Below are positions 20,584 through 28,512 of a stretch of DNA of 64,000 nucleotides, piece by piece. Below the pieces are notes generated by a model, which was not told where the DNA came from, searched no databases, and saw only the letters and a program-made list of their open reading frames with translations. The stretch is from Brachybacterium vulturis (GTDB lineage Bacteria; Actinomycetota; Actinomycetes; Actinomycetales; Dermabacteraceae), in the NCBI RefSeq assembly GCF_002407185.1, contig NZ_CP023563.1, forward strand, positions 3,472,001 through 3,536,000. Reading direction: 5' to 3'. The translations under genes were made by a program, and so were the position numbers. Within the stretch, counting starts at the first letter, position 1; each line of letters starts with the position of its first letter.

Positions 20584-22629
20584 TCAGCCTCTCCAGACCG
20601 CGATGTCGTCGAGCCGTGGTCCGTGGGGGAAGGGGAAGTAGTCGACCATCCCCTCGCGAGCCAGCACCGTGGTGAGCACGGCGCCCAGCAGCAGGAGCAG
20701 GAGCCCCAGCACCACGGCGCTCCAGAGCCGGTCCGGTGCGGCGGCGTCCAGCATCCGGTGCGCTCCGTTGCGGGTGGTGAGACTGCCCAGACCCACCCAG
20801 GTGATCAGCAGCGTGATCGCCATCGCGAGGGCGAAGGCGACCCCGTCCGGCGGGGCGATCCCGCGCAGCAGGGTCCAGCCCGCATCGAAGGCGATGCCCA
20901 CCAGCCCCCCGAGGAGCAGCGGGAGCAGCGCCTGCAGCGCGATCTCCCACAGCGCGATCACGGCCCGGAAGGGACTGGCCAGACCAGCCCGCCAGCTCGG
21001 ACCGGCGCCGGCGGCGCCCCGTATCCGCTGCCTGCTCACGCTCTGGTGCGAGCGCTCCCACGTCCGCGCCATCGCGCCCAGCACCAGCAGCACGGCGAGG
21101 GACATGTAGGGGGCGACCGCGGCGAGGGACACGATGAGCAGGTGCCCGAGCCATACCAGCAGAGGTCTGCGCGGGGGCGGCTCCGGCCAGGCCCCGGGGT
21201 ACAGCGGCTGGCCGCCGAGGGGACCGGGGTGTCCGGGAGCCTGCTGCGGGGGCGCGACCATCGACTGCCGGCCGGGGAGCATCGGGTCCGCGCCGGCGGG
21301 CGGCGGGACGACGGGCAGCGCCCTGGTGGGAGCGCCCATGACCGGCAGCGCCTCGGTGACCGGCTCCTCGGGCGTGGTGACGCGCGGCAGCGCCTCGGTG
21401 GGCTGCGCAGCGGGCTGTTCAGCGGGCTGCGCAGCGGGCTGCTCGGGGCGCTGGACGGCGTGCCGTGCGGTGGGGGGCGGGGCCCCGGCCGGAGCGGCCG
21501 GGGTCGACTGTGCGGTGGGGGCACCGAGCGTCGGCAGCACCGTGGTGCGCTCGGCATCGTCCGCGACCGGCAGCGCGTCGGTCTCCGGCTCCGCGCCCTC
21601 CGGGCGCTGCGCGTCGCTCTCCCGCGCGGCGTCGACGGTGCCTGCCCCGGCCGCCCCGGCGGCACCGGCGGCGGGAGCTGCCACCGGGAGCACAGAGGTG
21701 CGCGCACCGGCCTGGAGGAGATCCGTGTCTCCGGGGTCGTCGTACCGGGTCAGGTCGAGCGCGGCCAGCCGCTCCAGCAGCTGTGCGGGCTCGGGCCGCT
21801 GCGCGGGATCGGACTGCAGCGCCGAGCGCAGCCACTGGGCGAGCTCCGTGGGGACGCCGTCGATGTCGATCTCCCCGCGTTCGGCGCGCAGGAACACCAG
21901 GTCGGCGCGGCCGCTGCCGTAGGGCTCCCGGCCGGTGGCCGCGAAGGCCAGCAGTGCTGCCCAGGCCCACCAGTCCCCCGCCTCGCCGGAGTGGTCCGTG
22001 CGGATCACCTCGGGGTCGAGGTACGCGGCCGTGCCCATCACCAGTCCGGTCGAGGTCAGCCGCGACTCCTCGGCGGCGATCGCGATCCCGAAATCGATGA
22101 TCACCGGATCCAGCCGGTCGCCCTCGGGATCGAAGCCGGCGAGGTCGGCCTCGGTGGCGCCGCGCAGCATGACGTTGCCGGGCTTGAGGTCGCGGTGGAT
22201 CACGCCGGCGCCGTGGATGGCCCGCAGGGTCTCCCCCATCACCAGAGCGATCTCGCGCACCGCCTCGGGGTGCAGACCGCCATGGGTGCGCACCGCGTCC
22301 TCGAGGGTGGGCCCCGGGATGAACTCGGTGACCACGAAGGCCTCCGGGGAGTCGAGCTCGGCGTCGAGGATCCGCACGATGTTGTCATTGCGCACCAGCT
22401 TCTGCGCCGTCACCTCGCGGGCCAGCCGTTCGCGGGCGCGCACGTCCTCGGAGATCTCGTGGCGCAGCAGCTTGAGCGCCACGTCGTTGCCGTCGGCGTC
22501 GTGCGCCCGGTAGACGATCCCCATCCCGCCCGTGCCGATCTTCCCGAGGATCTCGTAGCCGGACTCCTCGGCGAGCGCGGTCAGCCGGGGGTCATGGGCT
22601 GCGCGGCGGGGCGTGCGGGACGGAGGCAT
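20584..22629 (-). CDS. Ser/Thr protein kinase with polytopic C-terminal membrane domain
   Basis: A 681-residue protein. The N-terminal Hanks-type kinase (about residues 20-285) is complete: GTGGMGIVY glycine loop, VALKLL lysine, catalytic HRDLKPGN, IIDFGIA metal-binding loop and GTAAYLDPE activation segment. A 200-residue Pro/Ala/Gln-rich linker with AAQPAEQP units follows. The last 190 residues hold about five hydrophobic helices instead of the single helix plus PASTA or other sensor seen in PknB-type kinases. It probably phosphorylates cytoplasmic proteins in response to a membrane signal. I prefer the ATG at 22629 because TAGCAT precedes it by 7 nt; an in-frame ATG exists at 22638. Confidence 0.88.
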   Translation of the reverse strand: MPPSRTPRRAAHDPRLTALAEESGYEILGKIGTGGMGIVYRAHDADGNDVALKLLRHEISEDVRARERLAREVTAQKLVRNDNIVRILDAELDSPEAFVVTEFIPGPTLEDAVRTHGGLHPEAVREIALVMGETLRAIHGAGVIHRDLKPGNVMLRGATEADLAGFDPEGDRLDPVIIDFGIAIAAEESRLTSTGLVMGTAAYLDPEVIRTDHSGEAGDWWAWAALLAFAATGREPYGSGRADLVFLRAERGEIDIDGVPTELAQWLRSALQSDPAQRPEPAQLLERLAALDLTRYDDPGDTDLLQAGARTSVLPVAAPAAGAAGAAGAGTVDAARESDAQRPEGAEPETDALPVADDAERTTVLPTLGAPTAQSTPAAPAGAPPPTARHAVQRPEQPAAQPAEQPAAQPTEALPRVTTPEEPVTEALPVMGAPTRALPVVPPPAGADPMLPGRQSMVAPPQQAPGHPGPLGGQPLYPGAWPEPPPRRPLLVWLGHLLIVSLAAVAPYMSLAVLLVLGAMARTWERSHQSVSRQRIRGAAGAGPSWRAGLASPFRAVIALWEIALQALLPLLLGGLVGIAFDAGWTLLRGIAPPDGVAFALAMAITLLITWVGLGSLTTRNGAHRMLDAAAPDRLWSAVVLGLLLLLLGAVLTTVLAREGMVDYFPFPHGPRLDDIAVWRG

Positions 22630-22636
22630 GCCCGCC

Positions 22637-22642
22637 ATGCTA
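22637..22642 (-). promoter_or_regulatory. -10 box of leaderless promoter (Ser/Thr kinase)
   Basis: On the minus strand TAGCAT is followed by 7 nt and the ATG at 22629. The box overlaps the alternative upstream ATG. Confidence 0.45.
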
Positions 22643-22827: not shown

Positions 22828-23505
22828 ATGCGATCGAACCTCTTCGACGCGTCCAACCAGGAGCGTCAGACCACCGAACGGTGGGCGCTGCAGTCCAGCA
22901 AGCTGCTGCGCTGCTCCCTGAACCCGCAGGCGCCCGAGATCGTCTCCGCCTCCGGCGCGATGGTCGCCTACCAGGGGCAGATGGACTTCTCGTACCAGGG
23001 CTCCGGCGGCGGCATGAAGCTGCTGAAGAAGATGGCCACCGGCGAGGGTGGCGACATGATGCGCACCCGCGGTCAGGGCGAGATCTTCTACGCCCGCCAG
23101 TCGAACGAGATCTTCCTGATCCAGCTCGAGGGCGAGGCACTCACCCTGAACACCAGGAACATGCTCGCCTTCGACAGCACCATCCAGTGGGACATCAAGT
23201 CCCTCGGCGGTGCGGGATTCATGGCCGGCGGCCTGTTCAACCTGGTCCTCCAGGGCCAGGGCATGGTCGCGGTGACCTCCGACGGCCCGCCGATGCTGCT
23301 GGACTGCTCCCAGCAGCCCACCTACGTGGACCCGCAGGCGGCGGTGTGCTGGTCGGCGAACCTCCAGCCGCAGATCAAGAACGACTTCAAGATGAGCTCG
23401 CTGGTCGGGCGCGGCTCCGGCGAGTCCTTCCAGCTCGGCTTCCACGGCCCGGGCTTCGTGGTGGTGCAGCCCTCCGAGGGGATCCCGGCCGCCACCTCGT
23501 CCTGA
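22828..23505 (+). CDS. AIM24 family protein
   Basis: A 225-residue beta-rich protein of the AIM24/TIGR00266-like family: VSASGAMVAYQGQMDF, a glycine-rich turn, then RTRGQGEIFYARQSNEIF and QGQGMVAVTSDGPPMLLDC. Bacterial members are of unknown function; fungal Aim24 acts in mitochondrial membrane organisation. There is no signal peptide or transmembrane segment. It is 35 nt upstream of the ATP-grasp/alpha-E fusion and in the same direction, so it probably belongs to that operon, though the next gene also seems to have its own -10 box. GAGGGAAGG lies upstream of the ATG. Confidence 0.85.
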   Translation: MRSNLFDASNQERQTTERWALQSSKLLRCSLNPQAPEIVSASGAMVAYQGQMDFSYQGSGGGMKLLKKMATGEGGDMMRTRGQGEIFYARQSNEIFLIQLEGEALTLNTRNMLAFDSTIQWDIKSLGGAGFMAGGLFNLVLQGQGMVAVTSDGPPMLLDCSQQPTYVDPQAAVCWSANLQPQIKNDFKMSSLVGRGSGESFQLGFHGPGFVVVQPSEGIPAATSS

Positions 23506-23528
23506 GCCCCCGCCCGCCGCGGCGCCTC

Positions 23529-23534
23529 TACCAT
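23529..23534 (+). promoter_or_regulatory. -10 box of leaderless promoter (ATP-grasp/alpha-E gene)
   Basis: TACCAT fits TANNNT and is followed by 6 nt and the GTG at 23541, inside the AIM24-ATP-grasp gap. Confidence 0.45.
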
Positions 23535-23540
23535 GATCCA

Positions 23541-25802
23541 GTGACCTCCACACCTCCGCAGGCCCTGGTCGACGAGCTCGCCGCTCTCGGCCCCCGAGGT
23601 CGACAGCGGGCGGCGACCTCGGCGGCGAGCATGTTCGCCGCCGACGTCCCCTCGTCGGCGCCCGTCGTCGATCCCGTCCCGGCGATCCTGGACGCCGAGG
23701 ACTGGTCGCAGCTCTCGGCCGGCCTCGTCCAGCGCATGCGCCTGCTCGACGCGCTCCACGCGGACCTCTACGGTCCGCGCACGGTGCTCGCCGCGGACGT
23801 CGCCCCGGTCGCGCAGCTGCTGCAGGACCCCGCCTATCTCCGCACCGCGACCGGGATCCCGTCCCGCGGCAACCACTCCCTGTTCGCGCTGACCACCACG
23901 GTGGCCCGTACGACCGACGGGTCCTGGGTGGTGCTCGAGGACGCGGTGGACGTGCCCGACGGCGCCGGCACCACCCTCGAGCTGCGTCGGGTGCTCTCCC
24001 GCTGCGCGCCCACGCTGTACCGCTCCACGCCGCTGCGTCGGCTGCATCCCTTCTTCGACACCATCCGCACCTCGCTGCACCAGCGCACGCGCTCCGAGGG
24101 ACGGGCCGGCCGCACCGTGGTCCTCACCGAGGACTCCGAGGATCCGATGCGCGGCTTCGACCACAGCTGGCTGGCGAACCTGCTGGGGGCGCCGATGGTC
24201 TCCGTCGGTGACCTCCGCACCGGCTCGGGCACCCTGACGCTGCGGCTGCCCGGACTGGACTCGGACCCCGGGGACGCGGTCGACGCGCTGCTGCGACTGG
24301 TGCCCTCCCGCCTGCTGGATCCCCTGGACCTGGGGCCGACCCCGCTGGGCGGCGTGACCGGCCTGGTCGAGGCCGCCCGCTGCGGGGACGTGGAGATCTT
24401 CAACCCGCTCGGCGCGGGGCTGCTGGAGAACCCGGACCTGCGGGCCGCCCTGCCCGACCTGTGCCGGCAGCTGTTCCACGAGGACCTGCTGCTGCGGCCC
24501 GCCGAGCCGGGCCTCGAGCAGGCCGGCTGGCTCAGCATGGATCCCGCCGGCGGGGACGAGCTCATCGAGCGCCCGCTGGTGCTCCGTCTGCTGGTGATGG
24601 GCACCGAGGACGGCTACGAGGTGCTGCCCGGCGGGGTCGGGATCACCGCCGACGACGGGCCCGAGGCGCTCAAGGACGTGTGGGTGACCGTGCCCGAGAC
24701 CTCGGCCGTCCCCGCCGAGGGCGAACCGGAGCCGGGAACCGCGGACCAGGCACCGGCCGCTGCTCGCGGCGTGCTGACCGCCTACCCGGCGATGACCCGC
24801 TCGATCGGCTCGGACCTGTTCTGGTTCGGCCGTTATCTCGAGCGGGTGGACTCCACCGCCCGACTGCTGCGCGCGGTGCTGGACACCGTCAACGATCTCG
24901 ACGCGGAGCGCGGTCCCGGGGCCCGGACCGCCCAGGCCGTCCTGCTGGGCGCGGTCACCGACGTGACCACCACCTATCCGGGGTTCCGCGGGCTGGACCT
25001 GGACTCCCACGAGGCGGTGAGCGGGGAGATCGAGTCCCTGCTGACCAGCCGCGGCAGGCCCGGCACGCTCGCGCAGTCCTATGCCGCGCTCACCCACACC
25101 ACCCGCACCCTGCGAGATCTGATCTCGGACGACATCTGGCCGGTGATCGCCCGGATGAACCAGCGCCTGCGCGCCCTCGGCGGGCAGGACACCCAGCCCG
25201 TCGAGCAGCGGCTGACGGACATCGTCGACGGCTGTCTGACCCTCTCCGGCGCCGTCGCCGACTCGATGCCCCGCAACCTGGGCTGGGACCTCACCGAGGC
25301 CGGCCGCAAGATCGAACGCACCATGGGGCTGCTGGCCCTGCTCCGAGCCGTCCTCGGCCACCGGCGCACCCGCGCCGCCGAGGCCCGGATCGCCGGTGCG
25401 GTCGCGCTGGTCACGGAGAGCGGTGCCTCGTACCGGCGCGCCTATCACGCCGCGATCCAGCCGGAGCTGCTGCTGGAGCTGCTGCTGACCGACACCACCC
25501 TGCCGCGCTCGATCGCCTTCCAGCTGGAGCGGCTGGGCCTGGCACTGGACCGGCTGCCGGACGTGGCCCCCTCCCCGGAGCTGCGTGCCCCGCTGATCGC
25601 GCTGCGCTCGCGCCTGGGCGGCTGGGAGGCGCGGGAGCTGCTCCACCCGTTGGGCGGGGAGGCGGCCGACGGCGCCCCGACCGCGCTCCTGGAGGAGGTC
25701 GACGCCGCGATGGACACCCTGCGGGAGCTGGCCACCGCGCTCGAGAACCGCTTCTTCCACCCCTCGGAGTCCACCTCGAGATGGGGGATCGACGATGTCT
25801 GA
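23541..25802 (+). CDS. Fused circularly permuted ATP-grasp-like / alpha-E domain protein
   Basis: A 753-residue fusion of two proteins that are usually separate. Residues about 1-410 match the circularly permuted type 2 ATP-grasp family (COG2308): DAEDWSQLSAGLVQRMRLL, DLYGPRTVLA, WVVLEDAVDVPDG, and later LPGGVGI and ALKDVWVTVPE. Residues about 417-750 are the alpha-E helical domain (COG2307): SDLFWFGRYLERVDSTARLL, then SYAALTHTTRTLRDLISDDI. In the first half the expected segment with the ATP-binding Lys and Gly-rich loop (a K-P-x-x-G-x-G-G-like stretch) is absent: only about 40 residues separate LLENPDLRAALPDLCRQL from RPLVLRLLVMG. Family knowledge predicts a peptide or amide ligase; this copy may be inactive. 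It overlaps the transglutaminase gene. Confidence 0.88.
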   Translation: MTSTPPQALVDELAALGPRGRQRAATSAASMFAADVPSSAPVVDPVPAILDAEDWSQLSAGLVQRMRLLDALHADLYGPRTVLAADVAPVAQLLQDPAYLRTATGIPSRGNHSLFALTTTVARTTDGSWVVLEDAVDVPDGAGTTLELRRVLSRCAPTLYRSTPLRRLHPFFDTIRTSLHQRTRSEGRAGRTVVLTEDSEDPMRGFDHSWLANLLGAPMVSVGDLRTGSGTLTLRLPGLDSDPGDAVDALLRLVPSRLLDPLDLGPTPLGGVTGLVEAARCGDVEIFNPLGAGLLENPDLRAALPDLCRQLFHEDLLLRPAEPGLEQAGWLSMDPAGGDELIERPLVLRLLVMGTEDGYEVLPGGVGITADDGPEALKDVWVTVPETSAVPAEGEPEPGTADQAPAAARGVLTAYPAMTRSIGSDLFWFGRYLERVDSTARLLRAVLDTVNDLDAERGPGARTAQAVLLGAVTDVTTTYPGFRGLDLDSHEAVSGEIESLLTSRGRPGTLAQSYAALTHTTRTLRDLISDDIWPVIARMNQRLRALGGQDTQPVEQRLTDIVDGCLTLSGAVADSMPRNLGWDLTEAGRKIERTMGLLALLRAVLGHRRTRAAEARIAGAVALVTESGASYRRAYHAAIQPELLLELLLTDTTLPRSIAFQLERLGLALDRLPDVAPSPELRAPLIALRSRLGGWEARELLHPLGGEAADGAPTALLEEVDAAMDTLRELATALENRFFHPSESTSRWGIDDV

Positions 25803-26823
25803 GCACACTCACCACGCACCTGCCGCGGGGGCGAGCGCCTCGAGCAGGTCGCGCCGGCGCCCGCTGCTGCCGCTGCGGGAGGAGGAGGGGACCGCGGTCG
25901 AGCCGATGCTCTACCGCGTCCACCACCTCACCTCCTACCACTACGCGAAACCGGTCTCGCGAAACTACGGCCGCGCGCACATCGAACCGCGGGCCACGCC
26001 GCACCAGCGGGTGCTCTCGCACGACGTGGTGGTCGACCCCGCGCCGGCCCGACTCACGGCGCACACCGACTTCTACGGGAACTCCTCGACCTATCTGCTG
26101 GTCGACTCCCCGCACACGCAGCTCGACGTCCACTCCCATGCCCGGGTCACGGTCGCCGAGCGCCGCTACCCGCTGGAGCCCATGTCCCGCCCCTGGGAGC
26201 AGTGCCTGCCCGAGCACTGGGGATCGCTGCTGCCCGAGGCGAGCCTGGACTTCGTCCACCCCTCGCCGCGGATCCCCGCCGGCACCGCGGCCCGGGAGAT
26301 CTCCGCCGAGGTGTTCACCCCCGGGCGTGCGATCGGCGAATGCCTCGCCGACCTCACCGCCCTGATCCACACCGACTTCACCTACGACTCCGCGGCGACC
26401 ACCGTCTCCTCGACCCTCGAGGAGGTGCTCGCCGCCCGGCACGGGGTCTGCCAGGACTTCTCGCATGTGGGCGTCGCCGCGGTGCGCGCCGCCGGACTCG
26501 CGGCCCGGTACGTCTCCGGCTACCTGCGCACCGCCCCGTCGGCCGAGGGCGCGCTGGGCACCGCCCCGGTCGGGGAGATGATCGGCTCGGCCGCCTCCCA
26601 CGCCTGGCTGAGCGTGCTGGTCCCGGGCACCGGCTGGGTGGACATCGATCCCACCAACCGCGCCTTCGTGGACCAGCGCTTCGTGACCACCGCCTGGGGG
26701 CGGGACTATGCGGATGTGCCTCCGCTGAAGGGCATCGTCGTCGGCCCGCCGGGAGCGACCAGCACCCTGGACGTCTCCGTCGGCGTGGTGCCCGAGCCGC
26801 CCGCCGGCAGCAGCCCGGGATGA
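25795..26823 (+). CDS. Transglutaminase-like cysteine peptidase/amidase (COG1305)
   Basis: A 342-residue protein. An N-terminal bacterial transglutaminase-associated beta domain (YRVHHLTSYHYAKPVSRNYG) precedes the transglutaminase-like fold with the catalytic triad visible: Cys in HGVCQDFSHV, His in ASHAWLSVLV and Asp in GWVDIDPTN. The fold in bacteria acts more often as a peptidase or amidase than as a cross-linker. The start overlaps the ATP-grasp/alpha-E stop by 8 nt; because relatives start at MLYRVHH, the Met at about residue 38 (25906) is a possible alternative. The three-gene grouping fits the predicted peptide-synthesis/hydrolysis systems described for COG2308-COG2307-COG1305. Confidence 0.9.
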   Translation: MSEHTHHAPAAGASASSRSRRRPLLPLREEEGTAVEPMLYRVHHLTSYHYAKPVSRNYGRAHIEPRATPHQRVLSHDVVVDPAPARLTAHTDFYGNSSTYLLVDSPHTQLDVHSHARVTVAERRYPLEPMSRPWEQCLPEHWGSLLPEASLDFVHPSPRIPAGTAAREISAEVFTPGRAIGECLADLTALIHTDFTYDSAATTVSSTLEEVLAARHGVCQDFSHVGVAAVRAAGLAARYVSGYLRTAPSAEGALGTAPVGEMIGSAASHAWLSVLVPGTGWVDIDPTNRAFVDQRFVTTAWGRDYADVPPLKGIVVGPPGATSTLDVSVGVVPEPPAGSSPG

Positions 26824-27045: not shown

Positions 27046-28512
27046 ATGTCCTCCTCCCAGCAGCCCTTCCGTCTGGCCGTGATCGGCTCCGGCCCCGCCG
27101 GCGTGTACGCCGCCGATACCCTGCTGCGCAACAAGCAGGTGAAGAACGGGGAGCTCGAGGTCTCGATCGATCTGCTCGACCGCCTCCCGGCACCCTTCGG
27201 CCTGATCCGCTACGGGGTCGCCCCCGATCACCCGCGCATCAAGGGGATCATCACCGCGCTGCACCGCATCCTGGGTCGCGGTGACATCCGCTTCCTCGGC
27301 GATGTCGAGTTCGGCACCGATCTGACCCTCGAGGACCTGCGCCGCCACTACGACGCGGTCATCTTCGCCACCGGCGCGCTGAAGGATGCGGAGCTGGCGG
27401 TCCCCGGCATCGAGCTGGCGGGCTCCCACGGAGCTGCCGACTTCGTGGCCTGGTACGACGGCAACCCGGACTATCCCCGCAGCTGGGAGCTGGACGCCGA
27501 ACAGGTCGCCGTGATCGGCAACGGCAACGTCGCGCTCGACGTGGCACGGGTGCTGTCCAAGGGCGCCGACGAGCTGCTGCGCACCGAGATCCCCGCCAAC
27601 GTGTACGCGGGCCTGCAGGCCGCGGCGACCACCGATGTGCACGTCTTCGGCCGCCGCGGCCCCGCCCAGACCAAGTTCTCCCCGCTCGAGGCCCGCGAGC
27701 TCGCCCACCCCCAGGGCCTGCAGGTCGTGATGGACCCGCGCGATCTGGAGCAGATCACCGAGGCCGAGTGGGAGGCCATCCGGGCCGACAAGCGCACCGA
27801 CCAGCTGGTGCAGATCTTCGCGGGCTGGCTCGAGGAGCAGCAGCGCCGGGAGGCCGCCGGCGAGGAGCCGACGGATCGCGAGGGCGGCCCGGTGCACCGC
27901 CGCCTCCACATGCACTTCTGGCACCGCCCCGTCGAGGTCCTCGGCGAGGACGGGCAGGTCACCGGCATGCGCTTCGAGCGCACCCGGCTGGATCCCGAGG
28001 GCAACGTCGAGGGCACGGGCGAGATGGTCGACTACGACCTCGGTGCCGTCTACCGCGCCGTCGGCTACCACGGCTCCGAGCTGCCGGGCGTCCCCTACGA
28101 CGCCCGCCGCGGCGTGATCACCAATGCGGCCGGCCGCGTCACCGGGGCCGACGGCGCCGTGATCCCCGGCCTGTACGCCAACGGCTGGATCAAGCGCGGT
28201 CCGGTGGGCCTGATCGGCGCGACCAAGTCCGACGCCCTCGAGACCATCGCCAGCCTGGTCGAGGACATCGAGTCCGGCGCTCTGGCCTCCGCTGTCGAGC
28301 GGGACGGCGACGCGATCCTGCGCCTGCTCGAGGACCGCGACGTGCCGTACACGACCTGGGACGGCTGGATGGCGCTGGACGAGCACGAGAAGGCCCTCGG
28401 CGCCGCCGCGCTCGACGCCGACGGCGAGCCCCGCACCCGCATCAAGGTCGTCGAGCGCGAGGAGATGGTCCGCGTCTCCCGCGACGCGGTGCACCAGCCC
28501 TCCCCCGCCTGA
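27046..28512 (+). CDS. fprA: Ferredoxin-NADP+ reductase, FprA/adrenodoxin-reductase type
   Basis: A 488-residue flavoenzyme of the mitochondrial adrenodoxin-reductase type common in actinobacteria. The N-terminal FAD site is LAVIGSGPAGVYAADTLL, followed by PAPFGLIRYGVAPDH; the NADP site is VAVIGNGNVALDVARVL with FGRRGPAQTKF; near the C-terminus GLYANGWIKRGPVGLIG closes the FAD pocket. It passes electrons between NADPH and ferredoxin in the cytoplasm. No ferredoxin gene is nearby. The ATG at 27046 is preceded by GAGGTGAG; in-frame sequence further upstream does not resemble the family. Confidence 0.95.
   Translation: MSSSQQPFRLAVIGSGPAGVYAADTLLRNKQVKNGELEVSIDLLDRLPAPFGLIRYGVAPDHPRIKGIITALHRILGRGDIRFLGDVEFGTDLTLEDLRRHYDAVIFATGALKDAELAVPGIELAGSHGAADFVAWYDGNPDYPRSWELDAEQVAVIGNGNVALDVARVLSKGADELLRTEIPANVYAGLQAAATTDVHVFGRRGPAQTKFSPLEARELAHPQGLQVVMDPRDLEQITEAEWEAIRADKRTDQLVQIFAGWLEEQQRREAAGEEPTDREGGPVHRRLHMHFWHRPVEVLGEDGQVTGMRFERTRLDPEGNVEGTGEMVDYDLGAVYRAVGYHGSELPGVPYDARRGVITNAAGRVTGADGAVIPGLYANGWIKRGPVGLIGATKSDALETIASLVEDIESGALASAVERDGDAILRLLEDRDVPYTTWDGWMALDEHEKALGAAALDADGEPRTRIKVVEREEMVRVSRDAVHQPSPA

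Follow-up and report, generated by a model that had tools for sequence, protein, structure and literature searches.

The locus analysed here lies in a stretch of 64,000 nucleotides of Brachybacterium vulturis (NZ_CP023563.1, positions 3,472,001 to 3,536,000), referred to as the window, and comprises, as the earlier note had described, three adjacent plus-strand genes; each has Pfam matches. The first (22828..23505) encodes an AIM24-family protein of 225 aa, which matches PF01987 with 134 bits against a cut-off of 25.7, and reaches 38.4 against TIGR00266, below the cut-off of 96.6. After a gap of 35 nt follows a gene (23541..25802, with an inferred GTG start codon) for a 753-aa fusion of an ATP-grasp-derived (COG2308) half with an Alpha-E half, as assigned by PF14403 (215 bits), PF04174 (163.8 bits), PF04168 (183.8 bits) and homologue alignment. 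The third gene (25795..26823), whose reading frame overlaps that of the fusion by 8 nt, encodes a transglutaminase-like (TG) protein of 342 aa, which belongs to COG1305 through matches to PF08379 (79 bits) and PF01841 (66 bits); no NCBIfam model matched the fusion or the TG. A Ser/Thr kinase-like gene upstream (20584..22638, minus strand), placed outside the system by flank comparison, and a ferredoxin-NADP reductase-like gene downstream (27046..28512, plus strand, start assumed) served as boundary markers, both named from their translations.

The Alpha-E half (residues ~422-753; 24804..25799) covers positions 6-294 of the 294 in PF04168, carries the ER motif DLFWFGRYLER and is helical in the AlphaFold model; a search by sequence found no solved relative, and its best structural matches (cytochrome bd and others, Z ~8-10) are within noise for helical bundles. 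In the TG, the triad of Cys219, His269 and Asp285, which we take to be the catalytic residues, is intact, and the matching columns hold Cys in 78/78, His in 77/78 and Asp in 74/78 of the compared TG rows. This TG is the single PF08379 (Bact_transglu_N) match in the window genome, and each of the 27 same-genus genomes with a fused gene has one Bact_transglu_N gene, adjoining the fusion, that is, one TG of this kind per fused Brachybacterium genome by profile match. The TG of G022 is split into two overlapping pieces.

Loss of the ATP-grasp site in the fused branch

By profile and by fold, the N-terminal half of the fusion (residues ~1-383; 23541..24689) is a member of COG2308. Residues 1-384 of the AlphaFold model align with chain positions 10-472 of 3n6x, the Methylobacillus flagellatus ATP-grasp protein of the PF04174-PF14403 type (Z 37.4, 364 aligned residues, rmsd 2.6 Å), and about 270 of the 332 profile positions are common to both, so that the core fold is present and the nucleotide lid is not. 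What sets the fusion apart from COG2308 is its Alpha-E half and a series of losses: the lid segment, which carries the Lys and the Gly-rich loop, two of the Mg ligands (Asp and Asn), and the later Asn. The PF04174 match ends at position 271 of 332, having begun at 1, and between the flanking motifs a linker of 25 residues (24492..24566) replaces the segment of 83 residues, with LVVKPVDGSGGKG and WIAQP, of the intact copy in the same genome; the later Asn/Gly-loop region has 35 residues versus 43. These lengths bear out the earlier note, which had reported the segment as missing and had put about 40 residues where the family has about 100, a fair estimate. The Lys and Gly-rich loop (KPVDGSGGKG) that mark an active ligase are missing from the same-genus homologues as well.

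In the degenerate Mg-ligand region (23892..23951), the fusion reads TTTVART...VLEDAVD versus GIDLVRD...VLEDNVR in intact copies, the Asp being replaced by Thr and the Asn by Ala with the Glu retained, which gives T...E.A instead of the D...E.N set of active ATP-grasp amidoligases. The Mg-ligand roles are taken from correspondence with D330, E344 and N346 of trypanothione synthetase, as given in the covered part of that source (PMC3581523), and this correspondence is one of motif only; aligning the intact COG2308 proteins as a profile with E. coli gss gave a meaningless result (probability 0.1). The structural comparison of the nucleotide pocket suggested in the earlier note led us to reject a relocation of the lid segment elsewhere in the chain, since the model matches 3n6x on either side of the gap; neither alignment nor model contains an inserted domain that substitutes for the lid. 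A sequencing or assembly artefact was also rejected, since the segment is missing throughout the 27 same-genus genomes with the fusion, where the linker varies in length. Since neither the Lys, the Gly-rich loop nor the Mg-ligand Asp and Asn remain, and in Brachybacterium the entire lid is missing, the window fusion is predicted from its sequence not to bind Mg-ATP as ATP-grasp enzymes do.

The gutting of the site described in the earlier note is real, and it is not peculiar to this cluster but general in the fused branch as sampled. In the pan-bacterial set, which is a sample formed by the best 80 of 572 confirmed loci (hereafter the best-80 sample), the Mg-ligand Asn is lost from 78/78 fused homologues (kept in 0/78) and the Glu from 77/78 (kept in 1/78), and Asn217 is replaced by Arg in 63/78. 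Among order-level fused sequences the Asn is kept in 0/24 and the Glu in 1/24 (24 of 30 rows in the motif alignment, six duplicates being left out), and the Asn is missing from the same-genus fused rows (28 rows, 27 distinct), whereas the Asn and the whole D...E.N motif are present in 31/31 intact homologues, 23 from the order and 8 from the pan-bacterial loci. As a specificity control, a third, unfused and similarly low-scoring PF04174 class (203-318 bits) keeps the D, E, N, K and Gly pair in 17/17 proteins that could be read through the site. Many residues of the core, among them R65, R149, R252, D260 and N288, are nevertheless the same in all 35 fused sequences compared.

The lid itself is missing in Brachybacterium and in five Halomonadaceae (Halomonas, Vreelandella, Halovibrio), whereas most fused proteins of the best-80 sample still have the lid segment, though its loop is degraded. 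In a quick tree supported by SH-aLRT alone, starred branches separate the two lid-less groups, so that two losses are forced, and a possible third (L139) depends on an unresolved fork; the stem branches have lengths of 1.02 for Brachybacterium and 0.79 for Halomonadaceae. The dN/dS of the gutted half lies below 1, at 0.16-0.55, similar to the 0.09-0.63 of the Alpha-E half (12 comparisons). That the fused paralogue forms a widespread, apparently dead branch is well supported by these alignments.

The intact paralogue and the gene neighbourhoods

A second COG2308/Alpha-E pair with intact motifs lies in the same genome, 1.2 Mb from the fusion, and its COG2308 gene (L003:7381-9279) matches PF04174 over the whole profile (1-332) with 477.6 bits, the motifs being present. 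The system therefore retains a ligase, and the fusion would be a pseudoenzyme accompanied by a paralogue of predicted activity. Canonical genes with the four motifs intact were found in 20/20 further same-genus genomes fetched, and six Brachybacterium genomes with a completeness of 95% or more lack the canonical gene, the fusion and the TG all at once. In the pan-bacterial set, all 44 fused genomes tested (44 of the 80 loci in the best-80 sample) contain a full-length, unfused copy scoring in the canonical range, with motifs read where the copies lie within the loci (8 rows); at least 4 of the 44 coincide with genomes of other sets, as L100, L101, L103 and L117 lie in the order-set genomes G026, G009, G199 and G166, as judged by identical match positions or scores. 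The canonical gene is at most 5 kb from the fusion in 13/78 loci of the best-80 sample.

Across the order, a canonical copy occurs in 54/58 genomes with the fusion versus 80/239 without it (Fisher p 1.5e-17, uncorrected for phylogeny and ignoring shared ancestry). The underlying table of 297 genomes was assembled by hand, with 54 carrying both genes, 4 the fusion alone, 80 the canonical gene alone and 159 neither, the last class including 12 with third-class genes alone; G021, whose canonical gene has an apparent frameshift, is counted among the 54, and G073 and G083, apparently broken, among the canonical-alone genomes, and the second PF04174 match of G115, G127, G139, G167 and G190 was taken as third class, like those of their genus mates. 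The pairing thus has exceptions: G228, G255, G097 and G103 carry a degenerate fusion but no canonical gene.

The order of fusion then TG is common to 14/14 order loci and recurs across phyla in the best-80 sample, in which a TG lies within the fetched stretch in 75/78 loci and on the same strand in 74. At canonical loci, a TG was seen in 18/20 of those fetched across the order (one being that of G030, same genus), and none was found within the 6.5-7 kb fetched at 20/20 same-genus canonical loci from fused genomes. A TG downstream of a fused COG2308-Alpha-E gene is the arrangement of the DUF2126/fused/TG gene sets, with which the window shares domain order, loss of the Mg-ligand Asn and the downstream TG. 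In these sets a gene for a DUF2126 putative amidoligase stands beside the fused gene in 61/78 loci of the best-80 sample, whereas an upstream transglutaminase-DUF2126 putative amidoligase was not found at the Brachybacterium fused loci, mostly with 1.5-kb flanks; the query was one C-terminal part of DUF2126, and the DUF2126 protein scanned also bears a Bact_transglu_N domain.

Proposed role of the fusion and competing explanations

Based on these findings, we propose, with a probability of roughly 0.6, that the fusion is a catalytically dead paralogue working as a non-catalytic subunit or scaffold that links the TG to the intact ligase. As a pseudo-amidoligase paralogue of the COG2308/Alpha-E enzyme pair, retaining the rest of the ATP-grasp core plus the Alpha-E domain, it would join the adjacent TG to the ATP-grasp/Alpha-E ligase encoded elsewhere and, through contacts between the proteins that we infer, would organise the hand-over from ligase to TG. 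The substrate may be an amide- or peptide-tagged molecule, following the published prediction for the COG2308/Alpha-E/TG gene family, whose product is predicted, and not shown, in the passages covered. The founding paper of this family is reportedly that of Iyer et al. in 2009, which lay outside the coverage; searches on inactive ATP-grasp proteins and on the family names found no description of the fused protein as inactive in the passages that were covered.

For the pan-bacterial "circularly permuted ATP-grasp" branch as a whole, we give even odds to the proposal that a dead ligase was co-opted as a near-obligate non-catalytic subunit of a system that forms and cleaves amide bonds, with the lid excised repeatedly and the core and Alpha-E domain coupling a remote ligase to a local TG. 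The lid would have been excised cleanly more than once, in Brachybacterium, in Halomonadaceae and possibly in a Phycisphaerales lineage, because in a dead branch it would be functionless. The nearly constant pairing of a dead-looking copy with an intact one would then indicate which gene is the candidate for activity and which for a subunit, annotation by Pfam domains assigns ligase activity to proteins unlikely to have it, and the lid-less Brachybacterium and Halomonadaceae proteins would separate scaffold function from residual ATP binding.

Several known systems resemble the locus in part. The Anbu operon (ATP-grasp, Alpha-E, transglutaminase and Anbu) shares three of its four domain types with the window, according to the parts of the sources covered (PMC5666114, PMC6376114), but the window genome has no gene of the proteasome fold (no PF00227 match genome-wide, 0/1, with control rings in 10/14), which extends to the genome the earlier observation that no proteasome-like protease is linked; moreover, the window ATP-grasp site is destroyed and a second locus is intact. 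For the operon of Yersinia bercovieri, a pull-down study that used Anbu as the bait saw its proteins make no specific interactions with one another (PMC6376114), which counts against a partner role; the ATP-grasp protein of that species is reported in the same source to respond to ATP. Glutathionylspermidine, trypanothione and glutathione synthetases have the same fold by structure comparison (Z 25.1 for human GSH synthetase, 8fbz, and Z 20.3 for E. coli 2ioa) and share the D...E.N Mg-ligand motif with the intact homologues; unlike the window fusion, they are catalytically active and have their lid complete. The RloA/RloB/RloC operon of Pseudomonas aeruginosa likewise combines a transglutaminase-type protein with one of the ATP-grasp kind, the former described as inactive and membrane-bound and the latter not described as dead in the passages covered (PMC12239564), whereas in the window the ATP-grasp copy looks dead and the TG triad is intact.

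The earlier note had left the choice between a scaffold and a divergent ligase. A fusion still making amide bonds through another nucleotide or phosphoryl-donor site would agree with the retained core fold and the many core residues invariant across the 35 fused sequences; however, the nucleotide-holding lid is gone with no inserted domain in its place, the Mg-ligand motif is lost in the fused branch as sampled, and the similarly low-scoring third class (203-318 bits) keeps its motifs in 17/17, so that we hold such a ligase to be highly improbable, and the loss of the Mg-ligand Asp and Asn, of the Lys with the Gly-rich loop, and of the later Asn speaks for a non-catalytic protein. It is quite unlikely that the fusion is a decaying relic, carried along through its coupling to the TG as the sole selected product, although the 8-nt overlap with the TG, the long stem branches, the fused gene of G007 (L028) lacking most of Alpha-E, and the absence of the whole system from six Brachybacterium genomes that are 95% or more complete would be in line with decay; the stem branches and the Alpha-E loss would likewise be compatible with relaxed constraint. 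Against decay, the reading frame is uninterrupted in the same-genus genomes except G007 (no Alpha-E), G022 (frameshifts; the assembly is 85% complete) and G024 (truncated at contig ends), dN/dS is well under 1 in both halves, and a degenerate site with recurrent new residues such as Arg for Asn217 (63/78, best-80 sample) is kept across phyla and is therefore not expected of a decaying gene.

A private partnership of the fusion with the TG, or elsewhere with the DUF2126 amidoligase, that does not depend on the canonical ATP-grasp draws on the TG adjoining the fusion in the genus, on the TG (75/78, 74 on the same strand) and DUF2126 (61/78) counts of the best-80 sample, and on the four order genomes with the fused gene and no canonical copy; outside the genus, the DUF2126 amidoligase may indeed be the primary partner. 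We nevertheless consider the independence unlikely, given the canonical copy in 44/44 pan-bacterial (best-80 sample) and 54/58 order fused genomes, and given that the canonical pair of the genus has no adjoining TG while that of the fusion is retained. The proposed non-catalytic link between TG and remote ligase is the reading that we prefer.

The place of AIM24 in the cluster, which the earlier note had counted in, holds within the genus only. AIM24 lies directly upstream of the fusion in 26/27 same-genus fused loci, on the same strand and in the window 35 nt away, which would suit a functional fourth component. This role is nonetheless very doubtful, because AIM24 persists in 7/7 Brachybacterium genomes that lack the fusion and are 95% complete or more, was undetected in G019, which has the fusion, and was undetected in 78 pan-bacterial (best-80 sample) and 14 order-level fused loci, where it was queried with the window protein alone (tblastn, blastp), so that a distant AIM24 could escape. 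AIM24 is probably a bystander rather than part of the system; at one same-genus locus lacking fusion and TG (L092, G014), it is followed directly by the ferredoxin-NADP reductase-like gene.

The degenerate ATP-grasp site

The fusion gene (23541-25802, + strand) encodes a 753-aa protein with Pfam ATP-grasp and Alpha-E domains, the circularly permuted ATP-grasp (PF14403, PF04174) occupying residues 47-322 and Alpha-E (PF04168) residues 423-739. AIM24 (22828-23505, +) lies directly upstream, and the transglutaminase-like gene (TG; 25795-26823, +), which carries its triad in the window sequence, overlaps the fusion by 8 nt; the trio is flanked by a kinase-like gene on one side and a ferredoxin-NADP reductase-like gene on the other. 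The closest named loci among the matches listed, which place the genome in Brachybacterium, are those of B. squillarum and B. epidermidis, and they have the same AIM24-fusion-TG order.

The earlier note held that the ATP-grasp site is apparently gutted, and this was borne out: the PF04174 match stops at profile position 271 of 332, and in the alignment the following stretch of the intact homologue, bearing LVVKPVDGSGGKG and WIAQP, has no counterpart in the fusion. Across this lid, the segment holding the nucleotide-binding Lys and Gly-rich loop, the fusion has 25 residues versus 83 in the intact homologue, and in the later Asn/Gly-loop region 35 versus 43. Judged by its sequence, the fusion has no usable ATP-grasp site. 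The AlphaFold comparison proposed in the same note used an AlphaFold2 model whose input alignment contained 35 fused sequences (mean pLDDT 83.9, pTM 0.59). Model residues 1-384 matched 3n6x, a solved COG2308 protein (Z 37.4, 364 aligned, rmsd 2.6 Å), and since this match spans chain residues 10 to 472, the ATP-grasp core is retained on both sides of the missing lid. Glutathione, trypanothione and glutathionylspermidine synthetases were the next structural matches (Z about 20-25), and structure comparison gave no informative match for the Alpha-E half.

Motif degeneration and recurrent lid loss in the fused branch

Intact homologues carry a Mg-ligand-like motif, GIDLVRD...VLEDN. It resembles, by motif likeness only, three positions in the E. 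coli gss sequence that we take to be Mg ligands (D318/E330/N332). A likeness of the same kind, again of motif only, exists to the trypanothione synthetase set D330/E344/N346, as given in PMC3581523. The Asn is present in 31/31 intact homologues and in 0/78 pan-bacterial fused sequences among the matches listed (drawn from the best 80 of 572 confirmed loci), 0/24 order-level fused sequences and none of the same-genus ones (28 rows, 27 distinct). Glu is retained in one of those 78 and one of the 24, and often in Brachybacterium, where Asp is altered. In the branch as sampled, the Gly-rich loop is gone or scrambled, though Lys is often still there (51 of the 78 listed, with Arg instead in 18). 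The fused branch, where sampled, is thus degenerate at the ATP-grasp site as read from these sequences.

Low similarity alone is insufficient to explain this loss, because a third class of PF04174 proteins, not fused to Alpha-E and scoring about as low as the fused ones (203-318 bits), behaves differently: the 17 members read through the site (L203-L210, L212-L216, L218-L221) all retained D, E, N, K and the Gly pair. Two of these were scanned for domains: L203 has an N-terminal glutamate-cysteine ligase domain (GCS2), which suggests a bifunctional thiol-peptide synthetase, and no GCS2 was found in L216.

In a tree of 72 sequences (269 shared columns, quick method, SH-aLRT support), intact and fused branches split at 100. 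Two clades of lid-less sequences, both supported at 100 and both on long stems, are divided by starred branches: Brachybacterium (9 rows, stem 1.02) and Halomonadaceae (5 rows from Halomonas, Vreelandella and Halovibrio, stem 0.79). In the window fusion PF04174 is matched up to profile position 271, in Halomonadaceae up to 272-274. L139, a lid-less sequence from a Phycisphaerales MAG, adds a third change on the tree, but at an unresolved fork. On this topology, the lid is lost more than once in the fused branch.

Pairwise NG86 dN/dS of the window against 12 relatives, a crude measure for a GC-rich genome, spanned 0.16-0.55 in the gutted half and 0.09-0.63 in Alpha-E, compared with 0.10-0.38 in TG and 0.16-0.41 in AIM24. 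Constraint on the gutted half is about equal to that on Alpha-E, and both change faster than TG.

The fusion is real and unusual, and is best filed, from its sequence features, as a pseudoenzyme branch of COG2308 joined to Alpha-E with recurrent lid deletion. No literature describing the fused protein as inactive was found in a search that lay outside the founding paper of the gene family.

An intact copy and an apparently shared transglutaminase

The source genome, a single 3.8-Mb contig rated 100% complete, has a second, full COG2308 gene (477.6 bits, profile 1-332) some 1.2 Mb from the fusion, followed by Alpha-E as a gene of its own. The four motifs are intact in 20/20 further same-genus canonical genes fetched, that of G021 with an apparent frameshift (L189); apparent frameshifts were likewise seen in L211 and L222 (G073) and L217 (G083), and any of these may be a sequencing error. 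In all 44 named fused genomes tested, at least 4 of which recur in our numbered genome sets, an unfused copy of full length scores in the canonical range. In an order table of 297 genomes put together by hand from several searches, the canonical gene occurs in 54/58 genomes with the fusion versus 80/239 without (Fisher p 1.5e-17, shared ancestry ignored), the exceptions being G228, G255, G097 and G103. G103 has a degenerate fused-like gene (L223), no canonical copy, and the third-class motif-intact L216. In 13 of the 78 pan-bacterial loci among the matches listed, fusion and canonical gene are no more than 5 kb apart.

Among 37 same-genus genomes, 27 have the fusion, all with the canonical gene; G001 (74% complete) and G030 have the canonical gene only, and eight have neither. 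Six of these eight reach at least 95% completeness, and the other two, G004 and G005, are of lower assembly quality (TG is still seen in G005). The canonical ATP-grasp of G030 (L068) is only 60% identical to that of the source genome; in the tree it clusters with the copy of another family (support 93, not starred), which suggests a separate origin.

Each of the 27 same-genus fused genomes has one Bact_transglu_N gene, adjoining the fusion (in G022 in two overlapping pieces). TG adjoins the canonical pair in 18/20 canonical loci fetched across the order, G030 included, and in 0/20 canonical loci of same-genus fused genomes within 6.5-7 kb stretches; both TGs occur in G300, a member of the same family. 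In Brachybacterium, the intact ligase and its dead counterpart thus appear to have one TG in common, which is the main reason for treating the two loci as one system.

The gene set is predicted to act in peptide synthesis or tagging (PMC5666114, PMC6376114). The ATP-grasp encoded in the Anbu operon of Y. bercovieri released phosphate from ATP when assayed (PMC6376114). DUF2126, a putative amidoligase, is near the fused gene in 61 of the 78 pan-bacterial loci among the matches listed and in 2/14 order loci, and was not found near same-genus fused genes; since it is undetected in Brachybacterium, the canonical ATP-grasp would be the system's remaining ligase there. We propose that the fused protein serves as a non-catalytic subunit joining TG with this intact ligase. 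Of the alternatives offered earlier, a divergent ligase or a non-catalytic scaffold, the latter is favored, since no usable site is left.

AIM24 and variation of the locus

AIM24, which had been counted as an addition to the cluster, adjoins the fusion in 26/27 same-genus loci. It was not detected in fusion-bearing G019, and it is kept in 7/7 fusion-less same-genus genomes at least 95% complete. With the window's AIM24 protein as query, none was found in 78 pan-bacterial fused loci among the matches listed or in 14 order-level ones. AIM24 is probably a bystander, as judged from these neighborhoods. In G014 (L092), kinase, AIM24 and reductase are contiguous and fusion and TG absent, making a clean empty site. 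In G012, G029, G025, G030 and G016 (L086, L088-L091), AIM24 is there and kinase and reductase were undetected in the 1.5-kb flanks, so that its neighborhood seems different. In G007 (L028), little of the Alpha-E half is left and the reading frame is still open; AIM24 and TG flank a frame of 450 aa in which the lid-less ATP-grasp half persists.
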